From Vulcanimicrobiota bacterium (GTDB lineage Bacteria > Vulcanimicrobiota > Xenobia > Xenobiales > JADMJV01), in assembly GCA_022842865.1 (NCBI GenBank), contig JALHOV010000013.1:1-32781 (forward strand): a stretch of 32,781 nucleotides of DNA. The letters run 5' to 3'. Every line of letters begins with the position of its first letter. Within the stretch, counting starts at the first letter, position 1. A program made the translations under genes and the position numbers. Below are positions 1 through 27,753 of this stretch, one piece after another. The notes beneath the pieces were generated by a model. The model was not told the DNA's origin, did not search any database, and saw nothing but the letters and a program-made list of their open reading frames with translations.

Positions 1-829
1 GATTGATGTCGTCTCCGGTGTGCCCGGCCGGCAAGGCGGCCAGCTTCTCGGCCAACTCCCCTCGAGACAGCTCCTCGGGTAGATATTCGCGGCGCATCAA
101 GGTGTCGGGGTCGCTGGGGCTCTCATTGGGCTGCATCGGGGTCCAGGTCTCACTGGCCACCAGTTCTTGCACCGGATCCATCGATTTATCAAACAAGGTG
201 ACGCGCATGTTCTTGAGCACCCACACCTTGCCGTTCCAGACCGCCTCTTCGGCGAAAATCTCGCGGCGCCGCGACTGCCCATAAAAGTAGTGCAGGTAAA
301 CCCCATACATGGTCTTGCGATCCACGTCATACCCGTTGACGTAGAGCATCTGGGTCTCCCCGTTCTTCAGCCAGCGTGGAGCGGTCAAGAGGGCGTAGCG
401 GAACGGATCGCGCTTCTGGGCTTCAAAGAGGATGTCATAAGCACGTTTCATCGAGCGCGGCACCAGCGTATCGTTCACCCAAAGATTGAAGCAACTGATC
501 AGGGTGCACAGGATCAGGGCCGGGGTGGCGATTCGCAAAAAGCTGATTCCGGCCGCTTTCAGTGCGGTCAACTCGGAATCACCCGAAAGGCGACCCATGG
601 CCATCAGACTGGCCAGCAACACGGCCATGGGACAGGTGAAGATGATCACTTGCGGGAGTCGGTTGATCATGTACTCAGCGATCAGACTGAGGCCGAGCTT
701 GCTCTCTAACACCATGCGGGCTACGCCGCTCAGGCTCTCGACCGCAAAGAAAAGAATGGTAAAGGCGCCCAATCCAAACAGGAAGGGTCCCAACAACTCC
801 CGCGCCACCAGCCGAAAAAGCAGATTCAC
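1..829 (-). CDS. LptF/LptG-family lipopolysaccharide export permease (partial, C terminus off the left edge)
   Basis: Inner-membrane permease of the LptB2FG transporter, which extracts LPS from the inner membrane and feeds it to the periplasmic bridge. About 276 codons are visible from a GTG start. They show three hydrophobic segments (about residues 10-32, 55-78 and 97-118) and then a soluble part with the family's TLVPRSMKRAYDIL-like stretch and the start of the periplasmic jellyroll. The last three membrane helices expected for the family lie outside the window. The start GTG (829-827) overlaps the TGA stop of lptB as GTGA, so the two genes are probably translationally coupled. LptF and LptG are hard to tell apart here because the partner permease is not in view. 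The family call is firm and the choice between F and G is open. Confidence 0.85.
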   Translation of the reverse strand, partial: MNLLFRLVARELLGPFLFGLGAFTILFFAVESLSGVARMVLESKLGLSLIAEYMINRLPQVIIFTCPMAVLLASLMAMGRLSGDSELTALKAAGISFLRIATPALILCTLISCFNLWVNDTLVPRSMKRAYDILFEAQKRDPFRYALLTAPRWLKNGETQMLYVNGYDVDRKTMYGVYLHYFYGQSRRREIFAEEAVWNGKVWVLKNMRVTLFDKSMDPVQELVASETWTPMQPNESPSDPDTLMRREYLPEELSRGELAEKLAALPAGHTGDDIN

Positions 830-1563
830 CCGGTGGATTCCTCAAAACCGGTCTGATACTTGTCGCCTAAATAATACTTGCGAGCAATCGGGCTGGTGGC
901 GATGCTGGGGGCATCCCCAGCCACCAGAATCTTGCCGTCGCGAATGATGTAGGCCCGGTCCGTGATGGCCAGAGTCTCGCGCACGTTGTGGTCGGTAATC
1001 AGCACGCCCAGGCCGCGGCCACGCAAGCGGCGCACGATCTCCTGAATCTCGGCGACCTGAATCGGGTCGATGCCGGTAAAGGGTTCATCCAACAACAAAA
1101 ACCGCGGGGAAAACGCAAGCGAGCGTGCGATCTCCAGACGCCGGCGCTCGCCGCCCGAGAGGGAAATGGCCACGTTTTTACGACGCTCGTGCAGGCCAAA
1201 CTCCTCAAGCAACTCGTCGATGCGTTGTTTCTGGGCACGTCCACGAATCCCACGCTCCTGGAGCACCAGGCGAATGTTTTGCTCCACGGTCATGGTGCGG
1301 AAAGCAGACGCTTCCTGAGCCAGATAACTGATGCCCAGACGAGCCCTGCGGTAGAGCGGCAGATGTCCAATGCTCTTGTCATCCAGGAAAATCTTGCCGG
1401 CGCTGGGTTTGACCAGGCCCACAATCATGGTGAAAGTGGTGGTCTTACCGGCCCCGTTGGAGCCGAGCAGACCGACCACCTCGCCTGAATTGACCTCGAG
1501 ACCGACGCCGTCGACCACGCGACGGCCATTGTAGCTCTTGGCCAGATCAACGGCCCGAATCAA
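826..1563 (-). CDS. lptB: LptB, LPS export ABC transporter ATP-binding protein
   Basis: Cytoplasmic ATPase that powers LPS extraction together with LptF/LptG. It has all ABC landmarks: Walker A GSNGAGKTT, a Q-loop region (YLAQEASAFR), the signature LSGGERRR, Walker B FLLLDEPFTGIDP and the H-loop LITDHN. A TTG start at 1563 is chosen because it gives 245 residues, close to the about 241 of E. coli LptB, and has AAGGAG six bases upstream. A longer reading frame to 1614 adds residues unlike the family. The start lies 17 bases inside the end of lptC and the stop overlaps the lptF/G start, so the three genes form one operon. Confidence 0.96.
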   Translation of the reverse strand: MIRAVDLAKSYNGRRVVDGVGLEVNSGEVVGLLGSNGAGKTTTFTMIVGLVKPSAGKIFLDDKSIGHLPLYRRARLGISYLAQEASAFRTMTVEQNIRLVLQERGIRGRAQKQRIDELLEEFGLHERRKNVAISLSGGERRRLEIARSLAFSPRFLLLDEPFTGIDPIQVAEIQEIVRRLRGRGLGVLITDHNVRETLAITDRAYIIRDGKILVAGDAPSIATSPIARKYYLGDKYQTGFEESTG

Positions 1564-2122
1564 AAGGATCTCCTTCGAGCACGGTGGTGATCTTGACGTG
1601 TCCGTCGACCACAATGCGCTCCAGTTTATCGGTGGTGGTGGCGGTATCTCCCTGAACGTGAGTCTTACCGCGGTCCCAACTCACTCCCTGGCTTCCCTGG
1701 AGCACGCCTGTCTTACCGTCCCAGGTCATTTTGTTGGCTTTGATCAGGTCGCGTGTGTCAAAGCGCCGAGCCTGCACGCCCCCGGCGAATTCGACCCGTT
1801 CACTGTCGATCCGGTAAACCGCCTTGGGTGCTTGGATGCGGATCAGTTTCTTGCCGGAGGAGTCCGACAGCGTCCAATCCACGTTGTCAAGCTGGGCTTG
1901 CTGCTGGGCGTCCCTGTAGTGAACCTTAAACGCCTCCATCAACCATGGGCGGCCCTTCTTGGTGCGGATGATCGTTTTGCCCGCCTCGGTCAGGAAATTC
2001 GATGCAGACTTTGGCTTACTGGCAGCGGCCGTGGGCGTGGCCGTAGGCTCCGGAGCCGGCGGCGGCGCAGAGGAACAGCCCAGCAGGGCCAGGGCCAAAA
2101 GATATCGAGAGGGACGGTTCAT
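1547..2122 (-). CDS. lptC: LptC-like periplasmic LPS export lipoprotein
   Basis: Probable LptC/YrbK-family protein that receives LPS from LptB2FG and passes it to LptA. The N terminus is a lipoprotein signal (MNRPSRYLLALALLGCSS, lipobox ALLGC). A Pro/Ala/Thr-rich linker follows, then a beta-rich domain with the alternating pattern of the OstA/LptC fold (for example AKVYRI-type strands, VEFAGGVQARRF, VLQGSQGVSW, VDGHVKI). A start 24 bases upstream (2146) is also open but would put extra residues before the signal peptide, and neither start has a clear ribosome site. It is 191 residues, the right size for LptC. Position immediately before lptB and lptF/G is the strongest support. Unlike E. coli LptC, which is anchored by a transmembrane helix, this one appears lipid-anchored. 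Confidence 0.85.
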   Translation of the reverse strand: MNRPSRYLLALALLGCSSAPPPAPEPTATPTAAASKPKSASNFLTEAGKTIIRTKKGRPWLMEAFKVHYRDAQQQAQLDNVDWTLSDSSGKKLIRIQAPKAVYRIDSERVEFAGGVQARRFDTRDLIKANKMTWDGKTGVLQGSQGVSWDRGKTHVQGDTATTTDKLERIVVDGHVKITTVLEGDPFDSGR

Positions 2123-2266
2123 TGCCTGGAATGCACTCTTGCCCATACCAACACAAACGGAAAACCTTTGATACGCACCAAAGTCCAGTATTGTCGTCTG
2201 CCCCCTCTGGACAGCAGGAGTCTAACCCTCCGGCATGAAAAATCTTCAACACAGGAGATTCAATTC

Positions 2267-4162: not shown

Positions 4163-6229
4163 ATGCCAACTCTACTTGAGAACGTCAAAGCCTTGCTGAC
4201 CGGGATGAAGGTCACGATTTCGAATTTCCGCAAAGAACCGGTCACCATCACCTACCCCTGGGCCTATGACGACATCCCCCCCAACTCGCGGGGGATGCTC
4301 CGAATGGTGGACTTCCACGACGCCGAGACCATCAGCAACAAAAGCGACTGGTATCACGGCACGCGCTGGGCGCCCTGCACCACCGGCTGTCCGGCCCACA
4401 CCGACGCCCGCGGCTACGTCACTCTGGCCGGCGAGGGCAACTGGCGCGAAGGCCTGGACATGCTGCGCAAAACCTATCCGTTCGTGGCCACTCTGGGCCG
4501 GGTTTGTCCCGCACCTTGCGAAAAATCGTGTAGCCGCGGCTTCACCGGCCCGGAGCCCATCTCCATTCGCAAGCTGAAGCGCACCTTTTCCGACTGGGAA
4601 GACACGCTGCCTCCGGAAGAGAAGTTCAGCTATCAAAATTACTGCTGCAGCCAACCGCTGAACGGAAAAACCGTGGGCATCATTGGCGGCGGACCGGCCG
4701 GTTACCAATGCGCCATGTTGCTTCGTTCCTGGGGCTTTGAGTGCCATATTTACGAGATGAAGGACGTTCCCGGTGGCTTTCTCACCCTGGGAATCCCGCT
4801 CTACCGCCTGCCCAGACATACCGTCAACAATGAAATGGAGCGAATCCACTCGCTCGAAGGCATCAAGTTGCACTGCAATATCGAAATTGGCAGCGATATC
4901 ACCTTCGACGACCTGGAAAGCCGCCACGACGAGGTCATCATCGCCGCCGGCGCCTGGAAACCTTATCGGCTCGAGCTGGCCAACGAAGAGAAACCCTGGG
5001 TCTGGTATGGTGAGGACTTCCTGGAGGAACAGATCTCCGGGCGCCTGACCGAAGTGCCTTCTCGAGTGGTGGTGGTCGGCGGAGGCAACACCGGCTTTGA
5101 CTGCGCCCGCACTTGTCGCCGCCTGGGCGCCGAGGTGGTCATGATTTATCGCCGCACACGCGCCGAGATGCCCTCCGAAGCCGAAGAAATCGAGGATGGC
5201 GAAGAGGAAGGCGTGGAATTGCGCTGGCTCACTTCCCCCAACGCGGTGGTGGTGGAAAACGGCGAACTCAAGGGCATGGAAGTGATCTTGAACCGGCTGG
5301 GCAACAAGGACGCCTCGGGCCGACGCAAGCCGGTGCCCATCAAAGGTTCCGAGCAACTGATTGAGTGCGGTATGATCATCACCGCTCTGGGTCGAGAAGT
5401 GGACCTTCCCTGGATTCCCAAGGATGTGACCCGCAACCGCAACGGCACCGTCAAAGTGGACGCCAGCGGCAAGACCACTCGCGAGAAGGTGTGGGCCTGC
5501 GGCGACGTCTGTCAGGTTTCCACCATCATCAACGCCATTGGCCAGGCCGACCGGGCCTGCATCGGCATCGCCAAAAAACACAACTGCCTGCCCGACAAAC
5601 TGCCTTTCCTTTACAATTTCGACCACGTCACGCCCCACGCCGACGGCAGCGACCCGGGCAAAGCGGCCCCGATTAAGGAGCGGATCGACGGGCTGGGCAT
5701 GATGCCGCATCCGCCGGCCCACCACTTCGAGGACATCGAGCCGTGGATGCGCCAGTCCAAAGAAAAGCCGTTTCGCAACATGAATCTGCAGGTGCCCATG
5801 CCCAAAATTCCCGGGCCGGTGCGGGTGCAGACCTTTGATGAACACGATATGGGCTTCAGCCTGGAGATGGCCCAACGCGAGGGCAAGCGCTGCTACGGTT
5901 GCGCGGCCGAGGTGTGCGTAGGTTGTGGCGTGTGTGTAGACGCGTGCCCCGACAGCTGCATCCACCTGGAGTCGCCCACCAATGAGAACGGCTACGAGTT
6001 CCCCGAGATCTACTCGATCGACCTGGCGCGCTGCTGTTACTGCGGACTGTGCACCGAGGCCTGTCCCACCGATTCGCTGGTCTTCACCTCTAACTTCGAG
6101 ATGGCCATACAAGAAAAACAGGACTCGTTTCTGACCAAGCCTCGCATGAATTTGGGGCTGGTGCACAAAGAGAAGGCCGAACAGGGTCCGCTGAAGTCCG
6201 GCCTGCAGCTACGTGTTATTCCTTCTTAG
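4163..6229 (+). CDS. Nested fusion: GltD-type NAD(P)H flavoprotein inside a NuoI-type 2x[4Fe-4S] protein
   Basis: A 688-residue cytoplasmic redox protein. Residues 1-50 resemble the N terminus of complex I subunit NuoI (LLTGMKVTISNFRKEPVTI, then PPNSRG). Residues about 55-145 are the Fe-S-binding N domain of GltD-type proteins (CTTGCPAHTD at 72-81, CPAPCEKSC at 115-123). Next come an FAD fold (GGGPAG at 175-180, closing with ACGD at 445-448) and an NAD(P) fold (GGGNTG at 306-311, YRRT). The C terminus returns to NuoI: CVGCGVC at 585-591, CCYCGLC at 624-630, ACPTD, then NFEMA. Expected chemistry is electron transfer between NAD(P)H, FAD and Fe-S clusters; the acceptor is unknown. No other complex I or glutamate synthase gene is nearby. 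The start is set by homology, since no clear ribosome site is seen. The longer open frame upstream is antisense to the hydrolase. Confidence 0.88.
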   Translation: MPTLLENVKALLTGMKVTISNFRKEPVTITYPWAYDDIPPNSRGMLRMVDFHDAETISNKSDWYHGTRWAPCTTGCPAHTDARGYVTLAGEGNWREGLDMLRKTYPFVATLGRVCPAPCEKSCSRGFTGPEPISIRKLKRTFSDWEDTLPPEEKFSYQNYCCSQPLNGKTVGIIGGGPAGYQCAMLLRSWGFECHIYEMKDVPGGFLTLGIPLYRLPRHTVNNEMERIHSLEGIKLHCNIEIGSDITFDDLESRHDEVIIAAGAWKPYRLELANEEKPWVWYGEDFLEEQISGRLTEVPSRVVVVGGGNTGFDCARTCRRLGAEVVMIYRRTRAEMPSEAEEIEDGEEEGVELRWLTSPNAVVVENGELKGMEVILNRLGNKDASGRRKPVPIKGSEQLIECGMIITALGREVDLPWIPKDVTRNRNGTVKVDASGKTTREKVWACGDVCQVSTIINAIGQADRACIGIAKKHNCLPDKLPFLYNFDHVTPHADGSDPGKAAPIKERIDGLGMMPHPPAHHFEDIEPWMRQSKEKPFRNMNLQVPMPKIPGPVRVQTFDEHDMGFSLEMAQREGKRCYGCAAEVCVGCGVCVDACPDSCIHLESPTNENGYEFPEIYSIDLARCCYCGLCTEACPTDSLVFTSNFEMAIQEKQDSFLTKPRMNLGLVHKEKAEQGPLKSGLQLRVIPS

Positions 6230-8654: not shown

Positions 8655-10778
8655 ATGTTCAAGTCCGGCTGGGCCTCGCGCTTCCTCCTTAGCTTTCTGT
8701 GCCTGGCCACTTTTTTTGTGGGCTACGAAATCTGGCCCTGGCAGCTAGGCGACCCGGTCGACCTGCAAGGCGATGTGCTCCAATGCACCCGCCTGCTCAA
8801 GTCGGTCACCGAGCCAGGCGGCGAATACCGCTGCCAGTCCCTGGGCGCCCCCTTTATCGCCGAGCACTATGGCTTTCCAGACCCCTTCGTTTTTCACCAT
8901 CCCTTGCTCTGGCTACTTTGCTTGCTTACCAAAAACGTCTATCTGGTGCTCAACCTGATTTTGTTGCTCACCTTTTGGAGCGCAGGTCTGGTCGCCTATG
9001 AGGTACTGCTGCAACTGGGCTGTCGCTCAGCCATGGCTGTGCCGGTCGCCTGGCTCTACGCCAGCCTGCCCAACCATCTGGAACGCTACGATCACTGGAG
9101 CCTGGCCTTTTATGCCAGCGCCCCGCTGGCCATTCTTTATGCAGTGCGCTGTCTGCGCGGAGAACGACTGAGCCGGCTCGAGTTGATGCTGGCGCCTCTG
9201 TGCGGCCTGTTTGGGGCCTACTTCGCCTTCTTCAGCTACCTGATCGTGCTGTCTTCCGGCCTGCTTGGCGCCATCTTCCGGCGCAGCCTCGGTCCTCTGC
9301 GCCCGGCTCTGCAGGTTTCCACACTGATCGCCCTGGCTTTTCTGCTGGCCCTGGCGCCGGCCCTCCGGGGGAAAAGCCCGGACTCCGCTTTCATGCCACC
9401 ACGCCAAACCACCGACCTGACCCGTTGGGCTCTCAACCTGGACCGGCTGATGCTACCCGCCCACAGCCGCAAAGGCCATCCTCTCGCACCGATTGCGCGA
9501 CGCTACTACGCCAACTTTCCCGCCCCCACCGAGGTGGATGAATCGCCCTACCTGGGGATCCTGGCCGTCCTCGGCGCGCTGGTGTTGTTTCTGGGCCGGG
9601 GAAAGAACCAGCCGGACTTCCCCCACCTCAAGGTTCTGGCAACCCTCATTTTCCTGACGGGCACGGTGGGCGGGTTTAGCGAATTGTTCACGCTGGTCAT
9701 CGGCCCCGCCATCCGTTGCTACAATCGCATCTCCTTCTACCTGGCTTTTGTGCTGCTGGCCGCTCTGGCGCTGCGCTTGCAGCAAGTGCGCTGGACGCGC
9801 GGCCGCCAATTTGCTCTGGTTCTGCTGATCCTCCTGGGCTTCGCGGACCAGTTGACCAGCGTGCAGCGACGCAATCCCTCGCAGTGGGCCCAACAAGTGC
9901 GTTCCGACCGTGAGTTCGTGGCCGCTCTGGAGCAACAACTACCCTCGGCCGCGCGCATCTGGCAATACCCCTACGTGGCCTATCCCGAGACGCCGCCCCT
10001 CTTTCGCGAAGGGGACTATGGGCTCGGCCGTTGCTACTCGGTTTCCAGCAAGATTCATTGGAGCTGGGGGGCCTTACGTGGCAGCAGTCAGGAGCGATAT
10101 CAGTCGGCCTTTACCAGACTGCCCCTGCTCCAGCAACTCAAGCTACTAAGGGAGAGCGGCTTCGCGGGCGTGACGGTGGAACGTCGGGCCTTCCAGGACA
10201 ACGGAGCCGAGTTGGAGGGTCAACTGCGCAGCCTCGGATTGAAGGCGCAGTTGCAAAGCCCGGACGAGTTCCTCGTCTACTACCCCCTTCCGGGAGGTGC
10301 CTCCGTTAGCCAGGTCGATTCGCAGCGCATCTTTGAGGACAACTTGATCCAGCGGACCTGGAACGGGGGCCAAATTAACTTTGGTCAAGGAGGCTGGGGC
10401 CATCTCTATTTGCGAGCAGGCTGGAGTGACCCGGAAGACGGCGGCTACTGGACGGTTCAGAAAAGTGGTTTTGTCCGGCTGCCCTGTCCCCCCGGACAGC
10501 CATCCGAAGTGGGCCTACAAATGCTGGTCTACCCCTACATAGGCCGCCCCAAGGTGCAGCGCCTGCAGATTTTCCAGGATGGCAAACCGGTGGCCTGGTT
10601 TGAGTTCCGTAAAGGCAAGCCCCACTGGATTCACTTCAACGTCAGCCTGCCCGCCCTCTTGGAACTGCGCGTGGAACGACCCACTCAGCCGTCCTACGAA
10701 TTTGAAGCGGACACGCGCAGCCTGGGCATCAAATTAGAAAGGCTCGAGGTCGTCGAGCCTTTCGCGAGTCCCTACTGA
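8655..10778 (+). CDS. Large polytopic membrane protein, GT-C glycosyltransferase-like
   Basis: 707 residues. The first 420 or so contain about ten to twelve hydrophobic helices. The first periplasmic loop holds an acidic motif (GDPVDLQGDVLQ) and a HYGFPDPF segment, the layout of GT-C enzymes that use polyprenyl-linked sugars. The C-terminal roughly 290 residues are soluble and beta-rich, with two parts (EFVAALEQQLPSAARIW..., then a jellyroll-like end with DGKPVAWFEF). It lies 45 bases after the GH26-like gene in the same direction, so a shared role in making and trimming a surface glycan is plausible. The exact family could not be fixed, and YfhO-like transporters are an alternative. The final 13 codons include the inverted repeat annotated at 10738-10762. 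Confidence 0.7.
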   Translation: MFKSGWASRFLLSFLCLATFFVGYEIWPWQLGDPVDLQGDVLQCTRLLKSVTEPGGEYRCQSLGAPFIAEHYGFPDPFVFHHPLLWLLCLLTKNVYLVLNLILLLTFWSAGLVAYEVLLQLGCRSAMAVPVAWLYASLPNHLERYDHWSLAFYASAPLAILYAVRCLRGERLSRLELMLAPLCGLFGAYFAFFSYLIVLSSGLLGAIFRRSLGPLRPALQVSTLIALAFLLALAPALRGKSPDSAFMPPRQTTDLTRWALNLDRLMLPAHSRKGHPLAPIARRYYANFPAPTEVDESPYLGILAVLGALVLFLGRGKNQPDFPHLKVLATLIFLTGTVGGFSELFTLVIGPAIRCYNRISFYLAFVLLAALALRLQQVRWTRGRQFALVLLILLGFADQLTSVQRRNPSQWAQQVRSDREFVAALEQQLPSAARIWQYPYVAYPETPPLFREGDYGLGRCYSVSSKIHWSWGALRGSSQERYQSAFTRLPLLQQLKLLRESGFAGVTVERRAFQDNGAELEGQLRSLGLKAQLQSPDEFLVYYPLPGGASVSQVDSQRIFEDNLIQRTWNGGQINFGQGGWGHLYLRAGWSDPEDGGYWTVQKSGFVRLPCPPGQPSEVGLQMLVYPYIGRPKVQRLQIFQDGKPVAWFEFRKGKPHWIHFNVSLPALLELRVERPTQPSYEFEADTRSLGIKLERLEVVEPFASPY
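10738..10762 (-). terminator. Convergent terminator inside the 3' end of the GT-C-like gene
   Basis: Perfect inverted repeat AAAGGCTCGA (10738-10747) and TCGAGCCTTT (10753-10762) with a five-base loop. Read on the minus strand it is followed by CTAATTT, giving a modest U-rich tail, so it most likely ends the transcript of the FASFNN-repeat gene. On the plus strand the tail is poor (TTTCGCG). It is encoded within the last codons of the converging gene. Confidence 0.6.
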
Positions 10779-20996: not shown

Positions 20997-21248
20997 ATGC
21001 AAAACAGAAAACAAGAGCTGCTGAAACTAATACGCAGCACTCTGCGCCAGGAATGGGACCCCGAGTATTACGCCTACGCAGACCAGGTCTTTAGCAGGTT
21101 AATCCAACGCTGGGAACCGGCCAAAATTGCCGACTACCTGCATCAAATCGCCACCGAACATATTGGTATGAAGGCGACCCGCTATCAGTTGTCCCTCGAG
21201 GTGGCCAACAAGCTATCGGAAGCCTCACAGGAATACCTGACCGACTAG
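20997..21248 (+). CDS. Small DUF1871-like hypothetical protein
   Basis: 83-residue acidic, helical cytoplasmic protein. The pattern IRxxLRQEWDP, then IADYLHQIATEHIGM, resembles a widespread family of short proteins (DUF1871/YugE-like) whose members have EWDP and an EYLxxIETEHMGL-type motif. Such genes often occur beside toxins or polymorphic loci as presumed immunity-like proteins, but no toxin is adjacent here. The ATG has AAGGAG ten bases upstream (20982-20987). Its TAG stop is complementary to the TAG stop of convergent sdhB: both use the palindrome CTAG at 21245-21248. Confidence 0.75.
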   Translation: MQNRKQELLKLIRSTLRQEWDPEYYAYADQVFSRLIQRWEPAKIADYLHQIATEHIGMKATRYQLSLEVANKLSEASQEYLTD

Positions 21249-22024
21249 GGAGCCAGGCTGGCCATCATGTAGTCACGGCGCATCTGGGCGATGTGGTTGA
21301 TGCCGATTTCCTTGGGGCAGACGGCTTCGCATTCGCCGTGGTTCGAGCAATCGCCAAAACCGAGACGATCCATCTCTTCCACCATGGCCACCACGCGCTT
21401 TTTGCGCTCGGGCTGGCCCTGGGGCAGCATGGCTAGCTGGGTGATCTTGGCCGAGGTGAACAGCGCAGCGGACGCATTGGGACAGGCGGCCACGCAGGCG
21501 CCACAGCCGATGCAGGCTGCCGCGTCCATGGCTTTGTCGGCCGATTCTTTGCCCACCAGAATCGAGTTGGCGTCGGGAGCGGCGCCGGCATTGATGGAGA
21601 CGTACCCTCCGGCGGCAATGATCTGGTCAAAGGCGGTGCGGTCGACCACCAGGTCTTTGATGACCGGGAAGGCCTTGGCTCGGAAGGGCTCGACGGTGAT
21701 GGTCGACCCCGCGGGGAAATCGCGCATGCGCACGGCGCAGGTGGTGCAGCCGGAATGAGGACCGTGGGCCACACCGTCGATCACCAGGCTGCACATGCCG
21801 CAGATGCCCTCGCGGCAATCGCTGTCAAAGGCGATCGCGTCCTTGCCTTCTTTGACCAGCTTTTCGTTGAGCACGTCCAGCATTTCCAGAAAAGACATAT
21901 TGGGAATGATGCCCTCGACCGTGTAGGTCTGGAGACTGCCGGCCTTATCTTTACCGGCCTGACGCCAGGCGCGAATGGTGTAGCGCGAGCCTTGCTCTTT
22001 CTTTTGAGAAGTTTCCTGTGACAT
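21245..22024 (-). CDS. sdhB: Succinate dehydrogenase/fumarate reductase iron-sulfur subunit
   Basis: 259-residue cytoplasmic-face subunit that carries electrons from the flavoprotein to the membrane quinone site. The N-terminal [2Fe-2S] ligands are in CREGICGMC and the following HSGCTTC. The C-terminal clusters are in CIGCGACVAACPNAS and CEAVCPKEI. It is the last gene of sdhCAB, 12 bases after sdhA. The length and the CIGCGAC form match the SdhB of b558-type (Bacteroidetes/delta-proteobacteria-like) complexes. The stop overlaps that of the convergent small gene. Confidence 0.96.
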   Translation of the reverse strand: MSQETSQKKEQGSRYTIRAWRQAGKDKAGSLQTYTVEGIIPNMSFLEMLDVLNEKLVKEGKDAIAFDSDCREGICGMCSLVIDGVAHGPHSGCTTCAVRMRDFPAGSTITVEPFRAKAFPVIKDLVVDRTAFDQIIAAGGYVSINAGAAPDANSILVGKESADKAMDAAACIGCGACVAACPNASAALFTSAKITQLAMLPQGQPERKKRVVAMVEEMDRLGFGDCSNHGECEAVCPKEIGINHIAQMRRDYMMASLAP

Positions 22025-22036
22025 GGACTGGGCCTC

Positions 22037-23992
22037 CTACTTGTAATCGCGCTGCTGCAGTTTGATGGACTCAAAGTGCAGCGGTTCTTTGTGGAGTTCG
22101 GGCTGGCTTACGTCGCCGGTGTATTTCCAACCGGCCACGTAGCAGAACTTGTCGTCGTCGCGCAGAGCCTCGCCGTCCTTTTGGTATTCCTCGCGGAAGT
22201 GACCGCCGCAAGATTCCTCGCGGTTCAAGGCGTCGATGGCCATCAGTTCGCCCAATTCCAGATAGTCGGCAACGCGACCGGCGAATTCGAGGTTCTTGTT
22301 CAAGGTGTCGCCCTTGCCGTCGACTTTGACTTTCTTCCAGAACTCGGCCCGCAGGGCCTGGATCTCTGAGATCGCCTTCTTCAGACCCTCGGCGTTGCGG
22401 CCCATGCCGACGTGATCCCAGACGATCTTGCCCAGCGCCCGCCAGAACTCGGTGGGAGTAGTGTCGCCCTGGACGCTCAGCAGCTTGTCGGTCATTTCCT
22501 GCACCTTAGTCACGGCTACCTTGAAGGCTTCGTGCTCGGTGGTCAGGTTGTCGGCCGGCTGCTTGCTGGCCAGATAGTTGCCCAACGTGTAGGGAATCAC
22601 GAAATAGCCATCGGCCAGGCCCTGCATGAGCGCCGAGGCACCCAGGCGATTGGCGCCGTGGTCGGAGAAGTTGGCTTCTCCGAGGGCGAACAAACCGGGG
22701 ATATTGGTCATCAAATTGTAGTCCACCCAAAGGCCGCCCATGGTGTAGTGCGAGGCAGGGTAGATGCGCATGGGCACCTTGTAGGGGTCCTCGTTGGTGA
22801 TTTCGTGATACATCTGAAAAAGGTTACCGTAGCGCTCTGTGATGGTCTGCCTGCCGAGTCGCTTGATGGCATCCCGGAAGTCCAGGTAAACGGCTTTCCC
22901 GGTCAGACCCACACCCTTGCCGTTGTCGCATTCGAGCTTGGCGGCGCGGGAAGCGATGTCGCGCGGCACCAGATTGCCGAAGGCCGGGTAACGGCGCTCC
23001 AGGAAGTAATCGCGATCGTCCTCGGGAATTTCGTTGGGCTTGCGCTTTTCCCCCGGGGTTTTGGGCACCCAGACGCGGCCGTCGTTACGCAGGCTTTCGC
23101 TCATCAAGGTCAGTTTGGACTGATAGTCGCCCTCCTGCGGGATGCAGGTCGGGTGAATCTGGGTGTAACAGGGATTGGCGAAAAGCGCGCCGTGCTTGTG
23201 GCAACGCCAGGCGGCCGTCGGGTTGGAGTTGACGGCGTTGGTCGAAAGATAGAACACCGTGCCGTAACCACCGGTGCACAGCAACACCGCATGGCCGGCG
23301 TAGGTCTCCAGCTTGCCGTTGATCAAGTTGCGCACCACGATACCGCGAGCCTTGCCATCCACCATCACCAGCTCGAGCATCTCGCGGCGGGTGTAGAGGG
23401 TCACGGTCTTTTCGTGAACCTGGCGCATCAGCGAGCTGTAGGCCCCCAGCAGCAACTGCTGTCCGGTCTGGCCACGGGCGTAAAAGGTGCGTGAAACCTG
23501 AGCGCCACCGAAAGAGCGGTTGGTCAGAGCGCCGCCGTATTCGCGAGCGAAGGGCACACCTTGGGCGGCACATTGGTCGATGATGTTTACCGAGACTTCG
23601 GCCAGCCGATGCACATTGGCTTCGCGGGCGCGATAGTCGCCGCCCTTGATGGTGTCATAAAAGAGGCGGTAGACGCTGTCGCCGTCGTTGGCGTAATTTT
23701 TGGCGGCGTTGATGCCACCCTGAGCGGCCACGCTGTGGGCGCGACGCGGGGAATCCTGGATGCAGAAATTGAGCACATTGTAGCCCATTTCGCCCAGGCT
23801 GGCCGCGGCGGCGCCACCGGCCAGGCCGGTGCCTACCACGATGATGGTGTACTTCCGCTTGTTGGCCGGATTGACCAACTTCATGTGGCCCTTATAGTCA
23901 GTCCATTTGTTTTCCAGCGGCCCGTCCGGGACGTTGGAATTCATCAGAGGTGAGGCCACCGCTCTCAGGTCTTGTTCCAGGGTCGTGCTCAC
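22037..23992 (-). CDS. sdhA: Succinate dehydrogenase/fumarate reductase flavoprotein subunit
   Basis: 651-residue catalytic subunit of complex II, oxidising succinate to fumarate with covalently bound FAD. Visible are the dinucleotide fold [15 protein letters not shown], the flavin-attaching His in [15 protein letters not shown], the active-site region with HPTCIPQ, the [12 protein letters not shown] motif, and [15 protein letters not shown]. The length suits the b558-type complexes, longer than E. coli SdhA (588). GTG start at 23992 overlaps the sdhC TGA as GTGA, indicating translational coupling. No frameshift is seen. Confidence 0.97.
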
Positions 23993-24720
23993 AGGTGCAG
24001 TCCTCCCGCCGGTGCGGCGAAACTTTCATTCATTGCAAAGATGGTGACGGGCAAGAAAAGGAAGCCGATGGTCAGCAACACAGCCAGTGCCAGCGCCGCG
24101 TTGACGGCCAGGGGCGTGGTCTTTTTGTTGAGCAGGCCCAGCGACTGGAAAGCGCTCCAGACACCGTGCTTGAGATGCATACCGAAGAGCAGCATCACGG
24201 CCGTGTAGATGCCCACATACCAGGCCTGGCTGAAGCGTTCCACCACCACTCCGTAGAGATCCACATGCTCTTCACCGTTCAGGGTGTAGTTTTCCACGTG
24301 CCCGAACAGGTAAGCAAACTTGAACGTAATCAGGTGAAAGACCAAAAAGGCCAGGATGGTCAGGCCCGTCCAAATCATTCCCTGGGAGGCCGCGCCTTTG
24401 CGGCTGCGGCCTCCGGCGTTGCCGGTGACTTGATAGCCAATGGGTCTCGCTGCGGATTTGTCCACCAGGGCCACGCTGATTCCGTTCCATACGTGGATTC
24501 CGATCGTGACCAACAAAAAGGCCTCAGCCACGTAGATGGCCGCACCGTGCCCCAGCGTCTCTAGAAAAAGAGCGTAACCGTTGAAAGCTTCGCGGCCCAC
24601 CAGGAGCAGCAAGTTGCCGATCAGATGTCCGATGGCAAAACCAACCCAGACCAACCCGGTGAAGCCCATCAAATACTTCTTACCGAGCGAGGAGCGAAGC
24701 GCTCCTATGAATGTCGTCAT
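23989..24720 (-). CDS. sdhC: Succinate dehydrogenase cytochrome b subunit, b558 family
   Basis: 243-residue integral membrane subunit with five hydrophobic helices, which binds haem and quinone. It is the fused C/D-type subunit of the b558 family, so the lack of a separate sdhD is expected. Conserved histidines occur in [28 protein letters not shown] and GMHLKHG, which supply the haem ligands. First gene of sdhCAB; GGAG lies 6 bases before the ATG. The 5' leader holds a seven-pair hairpin (24736-24755) and, further upstream, a terminator-like hairpin (24836-24868). Confidence 0.94.
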
Positions 24721-26490: not shown

Positions 26491-27753
26491 CTACTGCTCG
26501 TAGGTCACATCCGAGAACATCTTACGAAATTCCCGCACGGTGAGCTTGAAAACGCCGTCCATCTTCCCGTCCTTGGCGGTGCCGTCGGCATTCTGCGGTT
26601 CGGCGCGGTTGCCGCCCGTACCCCATGGATTGCGAATGGTGACCGTGTCACTCTCCCGATCGTAACCAATCACAGTATACTCGTGGCCATCCTGAATCGG
26701 GCTGGTGCGGATCAGATCCTTGTTGAGGCCGGCCGTAATCATTTTGCGCTGGCTCACCGAGGACTGAAGCTTGCGCCGGGTGGTGGCCTCGGAGGTCAGG
26801 GTCAACATATCATTGTCGGCTCCATTTTTGGAGAAAGCGCTGATTCCGTCGGAACCTCTCCCGCCTTCCACCTTGTCCATGGCTTCCGTGTAGGGGAGCC
26901 AGGCTTCCTTATTTCGCATCCGGGCATAGGCCGTTTCCAGGACCGTGGCCCAGGTGCCGTTCTGGCCGGCGTTGGTTTTCATGAGCAGCTCGGTATCGGT
27001 AGGAGCGTTGACAGTCACCGGTTTGGCGCCAGCAAAGGTCACCGTATAGGTTCCGTTTCCGTTGTCTTTGATCATTTTCCGCAAGGCGGCGGGATCGAGT
27101 TGGGCCTTATGGACCATCGCCGAGATGAAGTAGCAGGTGCCAAAACGTCCCTGCTTGACCGCCATCGCATCCGGTTCGCCATTGAAGAGGTCACGACTCT
27201 TTGCTTCCAGCGCTTTTTGCTGCTGCAAAAAGATGCCGCCCAAAAAGCTGTTGAGAGGAAGCGAAGAGTCGCCCTCTTTGACGTTCTTCAATAGCTCTTT
27301 GGTGAGGCCGTTTTTCAGCTCCGCCTGCTGCTTTAAGGCGCTGTAAAGGGTGGATACGGCGGCCGCGTCAGCTCCCTTGAGAGCGGAGTCACCCATGCTG
27401 GCCTTGACTTCGTCCAGGTCCAACTTGCCGTCCTTATTCTTGTCAAGCTTGTCGAAGAGGGGCTCCAGAGCGATACAGAAATCCTTCGGGTCCCCCGACC
27501 CTTTGAGTTTCGAGTCGTCGGAGGACGTTTCCAGGGGCATCGGAATCCGGTGGATTCCGGCCGAAGAACTCGGAGCGGTGCGTCCGAGGGCAAGGTTGCG
27601 CAGCGAGGTCATGGGGTTCATCGACGAGTCCTGTTGGCTACCGGGCAGGAACCTATCGGAGCTCTCCAGGGCGGAACTGGCAACCGTCGACTGGCCGGCA
27701 AACGACCTCGGGACGAAAGTTTTGCCACACGATGCTAAATCTGCAATTTTCAC
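26491..27753 (-). CDS. Calpain-type (C2) cysteine protease with an EF-hand
   Basis: 420 residues. An N-terminal low-complexity part is followed by a canonical EF-hand loop at 104-115 (DKNKDGKLDLDE, with calcium ligands at loop positions 1, 3, 5, 9 and 12). The calpain catalytic core has QGRFGTCYFISA with Cys207, GHEYTVIGYD with His357 and IRNPWG with Asn375, a complete triad. Calcium control of proteolysis is therefore plausible. No signal peptide is seen, so location is open. GTG start with AGGAAGG upstream. It lies in opposite orientation between the DUF1800 gene and a remnant of a second DUF1800 gene, as if inserted. Bacterial calpains are sporadic, which fits horizontal spread. Confidence 0.9.
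   Translation of the reverse strand: MKIADLASCGKTFVPRSFAGQSTVASSALESSDRFLPGSQQDSSMNPMTSLRNLALGRTAPSSSAGIHRIPMPLETSSDDSKLKGSGDPKDFCIALEPLFDKLDKNKDGKLDLDEVKASMGDSALKGADAAAVSTLYSALKQQAELKNGLTKELLKNVKEGDSSLPLNSFLGGIFLQQQKALEAKSRDLFNGEPDAMAVKQGRFGTCYFISAMVHKAQLDPAALRKMIKDNGNGTYTVTFAGAKPVTVNAPTDTELLMKTNAGQNGTWATVLETAYARMRNKEAWLPYTEAMDKVEGGRGSDGISAFSKNGADNDMLTLTSEATTRRKLQSSVSQRKMITAGLNKDLIRTSPIQDGHEYTVIGYDRESDTVTIRNPWGTGGNRAEPQNADGTAKDGKMDGVFKLTVREFRKMFSDVTYEQ

Follow-up and report, generated by a model that had tools for sequence, protein, structure and literature searches.

Introduction

Ordinarily, complex I is supplied with electrons by a separate NADH module made up of three proteins. In complex I without NuoEFG, the source of the electrons is presented as an open question in print (PMC11238625). 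The 11-subunit complex I of Desulfitobacterium and Saganbacteria, as well as the FpoF-fed and the cyanobacterial complexes, do without NuoEFG and rely on another input (PMC11238625; PMC6349859; PMC12361115), traits that they share with the complex described below, which is called here type 2. However, the Desulfitobacterium operon carries a nuoI of its own (nuoABCDHIJKLMN), and its donor is separate or unknown (PMC11238625).

Other described proteins combine a GltD-type module with a further redox domain. StnC of the Stn transhydrogenase fuses a GltD-type NADPH domain to a complex-I subunit domain and agrees with the protein reported here in the Lys and the Arg close to the flavin, but its partner domain is NuoG, and StnABC is an electron-bifurcating transhydrogenase and not a quinone reductase (PMC10482914). 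In the ANME-1 proteins HdrA 9/10/11, a GltD-type (NfnB-like) insertion of 500 residues likewise lies within a ferredoxin domain; the host protein, however, is HdrA and not complex I (PMC9012536).

Two protein families come close as well. PRK13984 (NF010590, "putative oxidoreductase", 611 residues) unites a NuoI-like two-cluster domain (50-138) and GltD (198-604) in one chain, like the hybrid protein described here, but end to end and with the NuoI part first, whereas the hybrid has GltD inside. At E ≤ 1e-100 it was found, among 14 control genomes, only in Thermotoga maritima, over the cut-off, and in one of 149 genomes of the phylum, below it; the Thermotoga gene presumably belongs to the MBX cluster. 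PRK12771 (NF009410) shares with the hybrid the order of GltD followed by a C-terminal two-cluster tail, but the matched part of the model lacks the NuoI N terminus and the tail of the hybrid fits NuoI better. Searches of open-licence PMC papers listed neither a GltD module nested in NuoI nor a complex I that reduces quinone with such an input, which does not demonstrate absence from print. The nested gene represents a third way of attaching GltD to complex-I parts, besides fusion to NuoG (StnC) and the end-to-end arrangement (PRK13984).

Domain layout and conserved residues

The window, i.e. the whole stretch of DNA that was analysed (32,781 nucleotides), is the complete contig C13 of a draft genome of 8.0 Mb (G000), assembled in 809 contigs and 82% complete. 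The protein under study and its parts are located as follows:

4163..6229, + strand: nested NuoI-GltD-NuoI protein, 688 residues plus stop (ATG at 4163, stop at 6227-6229)
4163..4312, + strand: NuoI N-terminal segment, residues 1-50 (NCBIfam and profile searches)
4370..4603, + strand: GltD-type Fe-S domain Fer4_20, residues 70-147 (Pfam and conservation; Cys72, 76, 115, 119, 123 and Lys139)
4673..5548, + strand: FAD/NAD(P) reductase domain Pyr_redox_2, residues 171-462 (Pfam and conservation; YRRT at 329-332)
5888..5902, + strand: R-C-x2-C, residues 576-580 (invariant in 16/16 sequences)
5906..6142, + strand: NuoI two-[4Fe-4S] domain, residues 582-660 (with eight Cys that do not vary and, past the second cluster, the extension typical of NuoI)

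The start methionine is also the start of the frame in G139, G140, G142 and G145, according to the alignment of homologues. A preliminary description of this DNA had proposed a GltD flavoprotein nested in NuoI, and the order NuoI N terminus, GltD, NuoI two-cluster domain was confirmed. The counterpart of residues 1-50 in NuoI is, we assume, the membrane-contact part. An N-terminal piece of 86 residues matched five NuoI models of NCBIfam weakly with residues 9-55 (E 0.0069-0.091), beside PRK12771, and a piece of 62 residues matched seven (E 0.0039-0.13). When 12 homologous N-terminal segments were considered, one NuoI model matched all of them at the lenient threshold of E ≤ 10, with a best E over the models of 1.4e-8. 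The profile made from the alignment of these segments retrieved 33 PDB sequences at E ≤ 1 (best 5e-10), 32 of which are NuoI/NdhI or their Mbh/Mbs counterparts, the remaining one being NdhL (E 0.35). The assignment of the first 50 residues to NuoI, for which a profile search had been named as the refuting test, thereby withstood it. T-x-x-Y-P and R-G, required of the NuoI N-terminal segment for membership, are both present.

At the other end, Pfam places a two-cluster ferredoxin at residues 585-637. The two CxxCxxCxxxC motifs and the extension that follows them are present, with 8/8 cysteines kept in 16/16 sequences, and the tail reaches 77.2 bits with NuoI models of NCBIfam vs 38.4 for the GltD-fused tail of PRK12771; the second possible refutation, a better fit to such ordinary tails, did not materialise either. 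From the Pfam, NCBIfam and PDB profile matches taken together it follows that, as far as sequence can tell, NuoI accounts for both ends and GltD for the middle. A simple end-to-end fusion of NuoI and GltD was rejected, since GltD lies inside.

The claim that the middle is a complete GltD-like module stood only in part. Fer4_20 and Pyr_redox_2 are both there, but the module departs from a textbook GltD in one place. In ordinary GltD an R-C-x2-C element precedes the GltD cluster motif; here it is missing from that position and stands directly before the NuoI cluster domain (576-580), where it likely supplies two ligands, the last ones, to the second cluster of GltD type, a role that is inferred.

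No established family takes in the whole protein. The NuoI cut-off of NCBIfam (113 bits as one uninterrupted domain) was not reached (74-80 bits, model positions 40-118 only), and the protein is accordingly classed as a NuoI-like hybrid and not as NuoI. The glutamate synthase GltD cut-offs were missed as well (TIGR01318, 210 of 483; TIGR01316, 271 of 472), as was that of PRK13984 (290 of 946 bits), where the order is NuoI first and GltD second instead of nested. PRK12771 is the best whole-protein NCBIfam profile, with 380.9 bits over residues 63 to 639; this is below its cut-off of 516, and ordinary membership was rejected. The fold is without model support, because an AlphaFold2 model from an 8-row alignment had a mean pLDDT of only 35.

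Ligands were compared in 16 sequences, 10 one-piece and 6 two-piece, the latter joined for the alignment. All 15 expected cluster cysteines (72, 76, 115, 119, 123, 577, 580, 585, 588, 591, 595, 624, 627, 630 and 634) are invariant in 16/16, as are Lys139, Arg215 and the YRRT of residues 329-332, which we read as an NADP-binding motif after GltD and adrenodoxin reductase. Four [4Fe-4S] clusters are inferred, namely Cys76/115/119/Lys139, Cys72/123/577/580 and the two of NuoI, with the assignment of cysteines to clusters being itself an inference. By counting along the alignment, Lys139 corresponds to K170 and Arg215 to R239 of StnC, residues that were studied by mutation in this NADPH-oxidising GltD domain, where K170 helps to bind the FAD-near cluster (PMC10482914). 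NADPH is probably a likelier donor than NADH, which is not excluded in the absence of binding or activity data.

Two complex I gene sets in the genome

An ordinary complex I is encoded on contig C33 of the same genome, with nuoA-D, nuoE, F and nuoG-L readable and a NuoI of its own. A second set, on C97, comprises nuoA, B, C, D, H, J and K, with a 4-base overlap of nuoH with nuoJ; tblastn with the genome's own proteins (E ≤ 1e-4) gave no match in it to any of nuoI, E, F and G. C132 carries the nuoL, M and N that come closest to the second type of its order, and a NuoI search of the whole genome gave two matches only, the NuoI of C33 and the 688-residue hybrid. The full genome had been proposed as the place to look for a nuo set without nuoI and nuoEFG, and the second set (C97 and C132) is one.

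The NuoD of this set carries GPQHPSTHG and LDY, and its NuoB carries GLACC, as read by eye in the sequence; we take these to be the quinone-site and N2 residues. Type-2 NuoB is over two NCBIfam cut-offs and NuoD over one; NuoC and two NuoD models remained below theirs. In the presence of nuoA-D, H and J-N and the absence of nuoEFG, the second set fits the 11-subunit complex I (in G000, and as complete operons in G005 and G012). The stand-alone nuoI expected in that complex is not in the set, its slot being filled by the hybrid or by two halves. The type-2 complex would thus work like the 11-subunit complex I and yet is a variant of it.

The one-piece gene itself stands outside the nuo operon, next to genes for a metallo-hydrolase and a MerR regulator. 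In three genomes of the same genus (G135, G136 and G138) it is approximately 31-32 kb from the second-set nuoD on the same contig. Approximately 15 kb downstream of the nested gene, the window holds a further locus:

21245..24720, - strand: succinate dehydrogenase genes (context), SdhB-like 21245-22024, SdhA 22037-23992 and SdhC 23989-24720 (Pfam; SdhC just below the cut-off)

In G138 the SdhC is 92% identical and lies between the nested gene and nuoA. The nuoA of the second set is preceded by a polyprenyl synthetase gene (L072 10019-12314; L016 9843-10814), and in G138 a class-III aminotransferase gene, hemL-like, also stands before it; a link of these genes to quinone synthesis is possible.

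Distribution and origin

Among 149 genomes of the phylum, 25 gave a protein match at 1e-60. In 20 of them the match begins no later than residue 9 and so takes in the N-terminal segment, and in G132 it is cut by a contig end; G003, G004, G011 and G014 match in the GltD part only. Beyond the 25, G134 has a tail fragment at a contig end, and carriers total 22/149. A single frame runs from the N terminus to the tail in 13 (G000, G013, G133, G135-G140, G142, G145, G147 and G148), down to 44% identity, and in G132 a single frame holds GltD and the tail; the contig ends of G134 and G146 conceal the number of pieces, one or two. The whole frame in 13 genomes, together with five close loci at 73-96% identity from a further contig scan, leaves practically no room for an assembly or gene-calling artefact, for which only the origin of the window in an 809-contig draft could be cited. 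At least three of these five loci overlap with the 13 one-piece genomes; two more loci of that scan match residues 72-481 only.

Six carriers (G005, G007-G010 and G012) have a two-piece form, [NuoI-N+GltD] and [NuoI clusters]. In four of them (G005, G009, G010 and G012) the halves are adjacent, among nuo genes without nuoEFG. The order in G005, G009 and G012 is nuoA-B-C-D-H-[NuoI-N+GltD]-[NuoI clusters]-J-K(-L-M-N), the contig of G009 ending in nuoK; the pair thus stands where nuoI would be expected, after nuoH and before nuoJ, and the split homologues of these three genomes accordingly occupy that slot in operons without nuoI or nuoEFG. G010 has nuoC-[NuoI-N+GltD]-[NuoI clusters]-J-K-L-M-N, with A, B, D and H on a separate contig. 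The halves in G007 and G008 are away from the nuo genes seen, with a further ORF between them. These two genomes also have a glutamyl/glutaminyl-tRNA synthetase gene between nuoD and nuoH (L079 8648-12941; L080 5837-10142).

Where the two-gene form is lacking, nuoH, J and K follow in a row in all 13 readable loci (G000, G132, G133, G135-G139, G142 and G145-G148), and no NuoI, E, F or G match was found in these stretches by tblastn with the G000 proteins (E ≤ 1e-4). G134 and G140 are outside this count, as their contigs end inside nuoH.

A NuoD tree of 31 sequences separates type 1 (9) from type 2 (22) with branch support 100/100. Only these nine represent type 1 on the tree; the remaining genomes were assigned to type 1 by Pfam pattern, which alone can mislead on NuoD type, as G007 and G008 demonstrate. 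The type-2 clade contains 21 of the 22 carriers, the exception being G013, in which no NuoD match was found in a genome 62% complete, with the protein present. Over the 149 genomes there are 22 carriers, 22 genomes with type-2 NuoD and 21 with both (Fisher p 2.5e-23, kinship ignored). Among the 22 type-2 sequences, the sole one from a genome without the hybrid is that of G014, which has an ordinary NuoI of 200 residues and no GltD form. Its type-2 complex I is spread over two clusters, nuoM-N-B-I apart from nuoA-C-D-H-J-K-L (L086 4507-8755; L077 2-5219); this arrangement with an ordinary NuoI is possibly the ancestral state.

On the tree the two-piece forms branch off near the base, and a single group (82/79) unites the one-piece forms, G134 and G146. 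Since the two-piece forms are basal and the one-piece forms a later group, the nested gene probably arose by the joining of two neighbouring genes; the opposite order is not ruled out by the tree, which has modest support and a poorly resolved base and lacks the one-piece carrier G013. A single origin of the two-piece form is not ruled out either. The earlier suggestion of a domain insertion instead of an end-to-end fusion is thus borne out for the nested layout, but with two-gene forms basal a single insertion event is probably not how it came about.

Carrier counts are limited to the phylum, and the distribution beyond it was not properly sampled. Two scans of viral contigs gave three relatives matching the GltD part and one matching the ferredoxin part. 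A plasmid search returned 105 records, two of which match 80% or more of the protein, starting at residues 56 and 72; among the 15 matches listed, two Deinococcus records begin at residues 16 and 31.

Other electron inputs in the carriers

No NuoI over the curated cut-off was found in 15 of the 22 carriers. The other seven (G000 and G135-G140) have one, together with an extra ordinary NuoD, and G134 has ordinary nuo genes too, without a NuoI over the cut-off. NuoF was searched in 17 chosen genomes, which took in 14 of the 15 NuoI-less carriers (not G134), with a cut-off of 559 bits. It is over the cut-off in G000, G138 and G013; this search gave no match in G007, G008 and G132 and only matches below 45 bits in G010 and G142. 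The statement that no NADH module is left in carriers rests on these five last-named genomes, two of which are incomplete (G132, 61%; G142, 71%).

Eight carriers with type 2 only contain NuoF-like proteins below the threshold, at 459-523 bits in G005, G009, G012 and G145-G148 and as a 204-bit piece in G133. Their frames mostly have 587-1073 residues, the long ones being HydB-like in our reading; those of G005 (415) and G009 (411) have the length of NuoF. The proteins of NuoF length, on G005:C4 and G009:C177, occur where the only complex I seen is of the GltD type.

Proposed function and alternatives

The protein is very likely the NuoI of a complex I that lacks NuoEFG, with a built-in GltD-type NAD(P)H dehydrogenase; the activity is inferred, without expression, binding or activity data. 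The observations behind this explanation are the domain order, the conserved ligands, the lack of nuoI in the partner set and the split version in the nuoI slot. The complex would consist of NuoA, B, C, D, H, J, K, L, M and N plus the hybrid, as a second complex I in G000. NAD(P)H, more likely NADPH, would give a hydride to FAD, and electrons would pass one at a time from there to the FAD-near [4Fe-4S] cluster (Cys76, 115, 119, Lys139) and the second one (Cys72, 123, 577, 580), then through the two NuoI clusters N6a and N6b to the N2 cluster of NuoB and on to quinone, with the membrane arm presumably pumping ions. Where two genes encode the protein, both products would share the second cluster. 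The hybrid may in this way replace NuoI and NuoEFG together.

For these bacteria, the answer to the question of the electron source seems to be written in one gene, a docking subunit with its own NAD(P)H dehydrogenase, which offers a testable, probably NADPH-specific complex I. Ordinary NuoI (G014), the split and the nested form make up a natural series for input-module swapping. We lean, only slightly, to a wider proposal of a distinct lineage of respiratory complex I with a newly devised electron entry, in which NuoI was split at the border of the cluster domain and joined to a GltD NADPH dehydrogenase, the two chains were stapled by a shared [4Fe-4S] cluster, and they were later re-fused in nested form, giving an NADPH:quinone oxidoreductase of 11 proteins instead of 14.

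The preliminary description had suggested that NAD(P)H feeds a complex-I-like docking subunit, for example as an input for a complex I without NADH or for a soluble ferredoxin. The protein could be a soluble NAD(P)H:ferredoxin or transhydrogenase-type flavoprotein that does not dock, its NuoI-like ends being leftovers, with NuoF-like proteins elsewhere in some genomes feeding the complex. The solitary position of the one-piece gene beside the metallo-hydrolase and MerR genes would suit such an enzyme, as would G013, with the protein and no detected NuoD, and the sub-threshold NuoF-like proteins of the eight carriers with type 2 only. However, the NuoI N terminus, needless for a soluble enzyme, is kept in 16 sequences, split genes stand inside nuo gene sets, the partner sets lack nuoI, and five carriers have nuo genes with no NuoF seen. 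Input into a docking subunit is therefore retained, supported by the nuo set without nuoI and nuoEFG and by the split genes in the nuoI slot, and the soluble alternative is regarded as quite improbable.

Docking could also be accepted and the flow reversed, with quinol and the ion gradient normally driving the reduction of NADP+. Complex I and GltD-type modules are reversible, and the window also contains genes for succinate dehydrogenase, but the cellular NADPH/NADP+ ratio usually favours oxidation; nothing in this analysis decides either way, and we consider reverse operation as the usual mode unlikely. Still more doubtful than either of these is a flavin that bifurcates as in NfnB, sending NAD(P)H electrons partly to quinone and partly to ferredoxin. 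The flavin-adjacent Arg215 is kept in 16/16 and equals NfnB R201 and StnC R239, but the Lys is that of StnC (K170), where NfnB has glutamate, and StnC does not bifurcate (PMC10482914); a second branch of clusters is not visible. Oxidation of NAD(P)H by a docked NuoI-type subunit remains the preferred reading.

Other genes in the window

Three further loci of the window were recorded. At 2-2146 (- strand), LptF/LptG, ABC transporter and LptC genes make up a lipopolysaccharide export set. A protein of 707 residues at 8655-10778 (+ strand) has no Pfam match at E 0.001 and recurs with 70-85% identity in L004, L005 and L008. Finally, a cysteine protease of the calpain type, which also matches an EF-hand weakly, is encoded in this bacterium at 26491-27753 (- strand).
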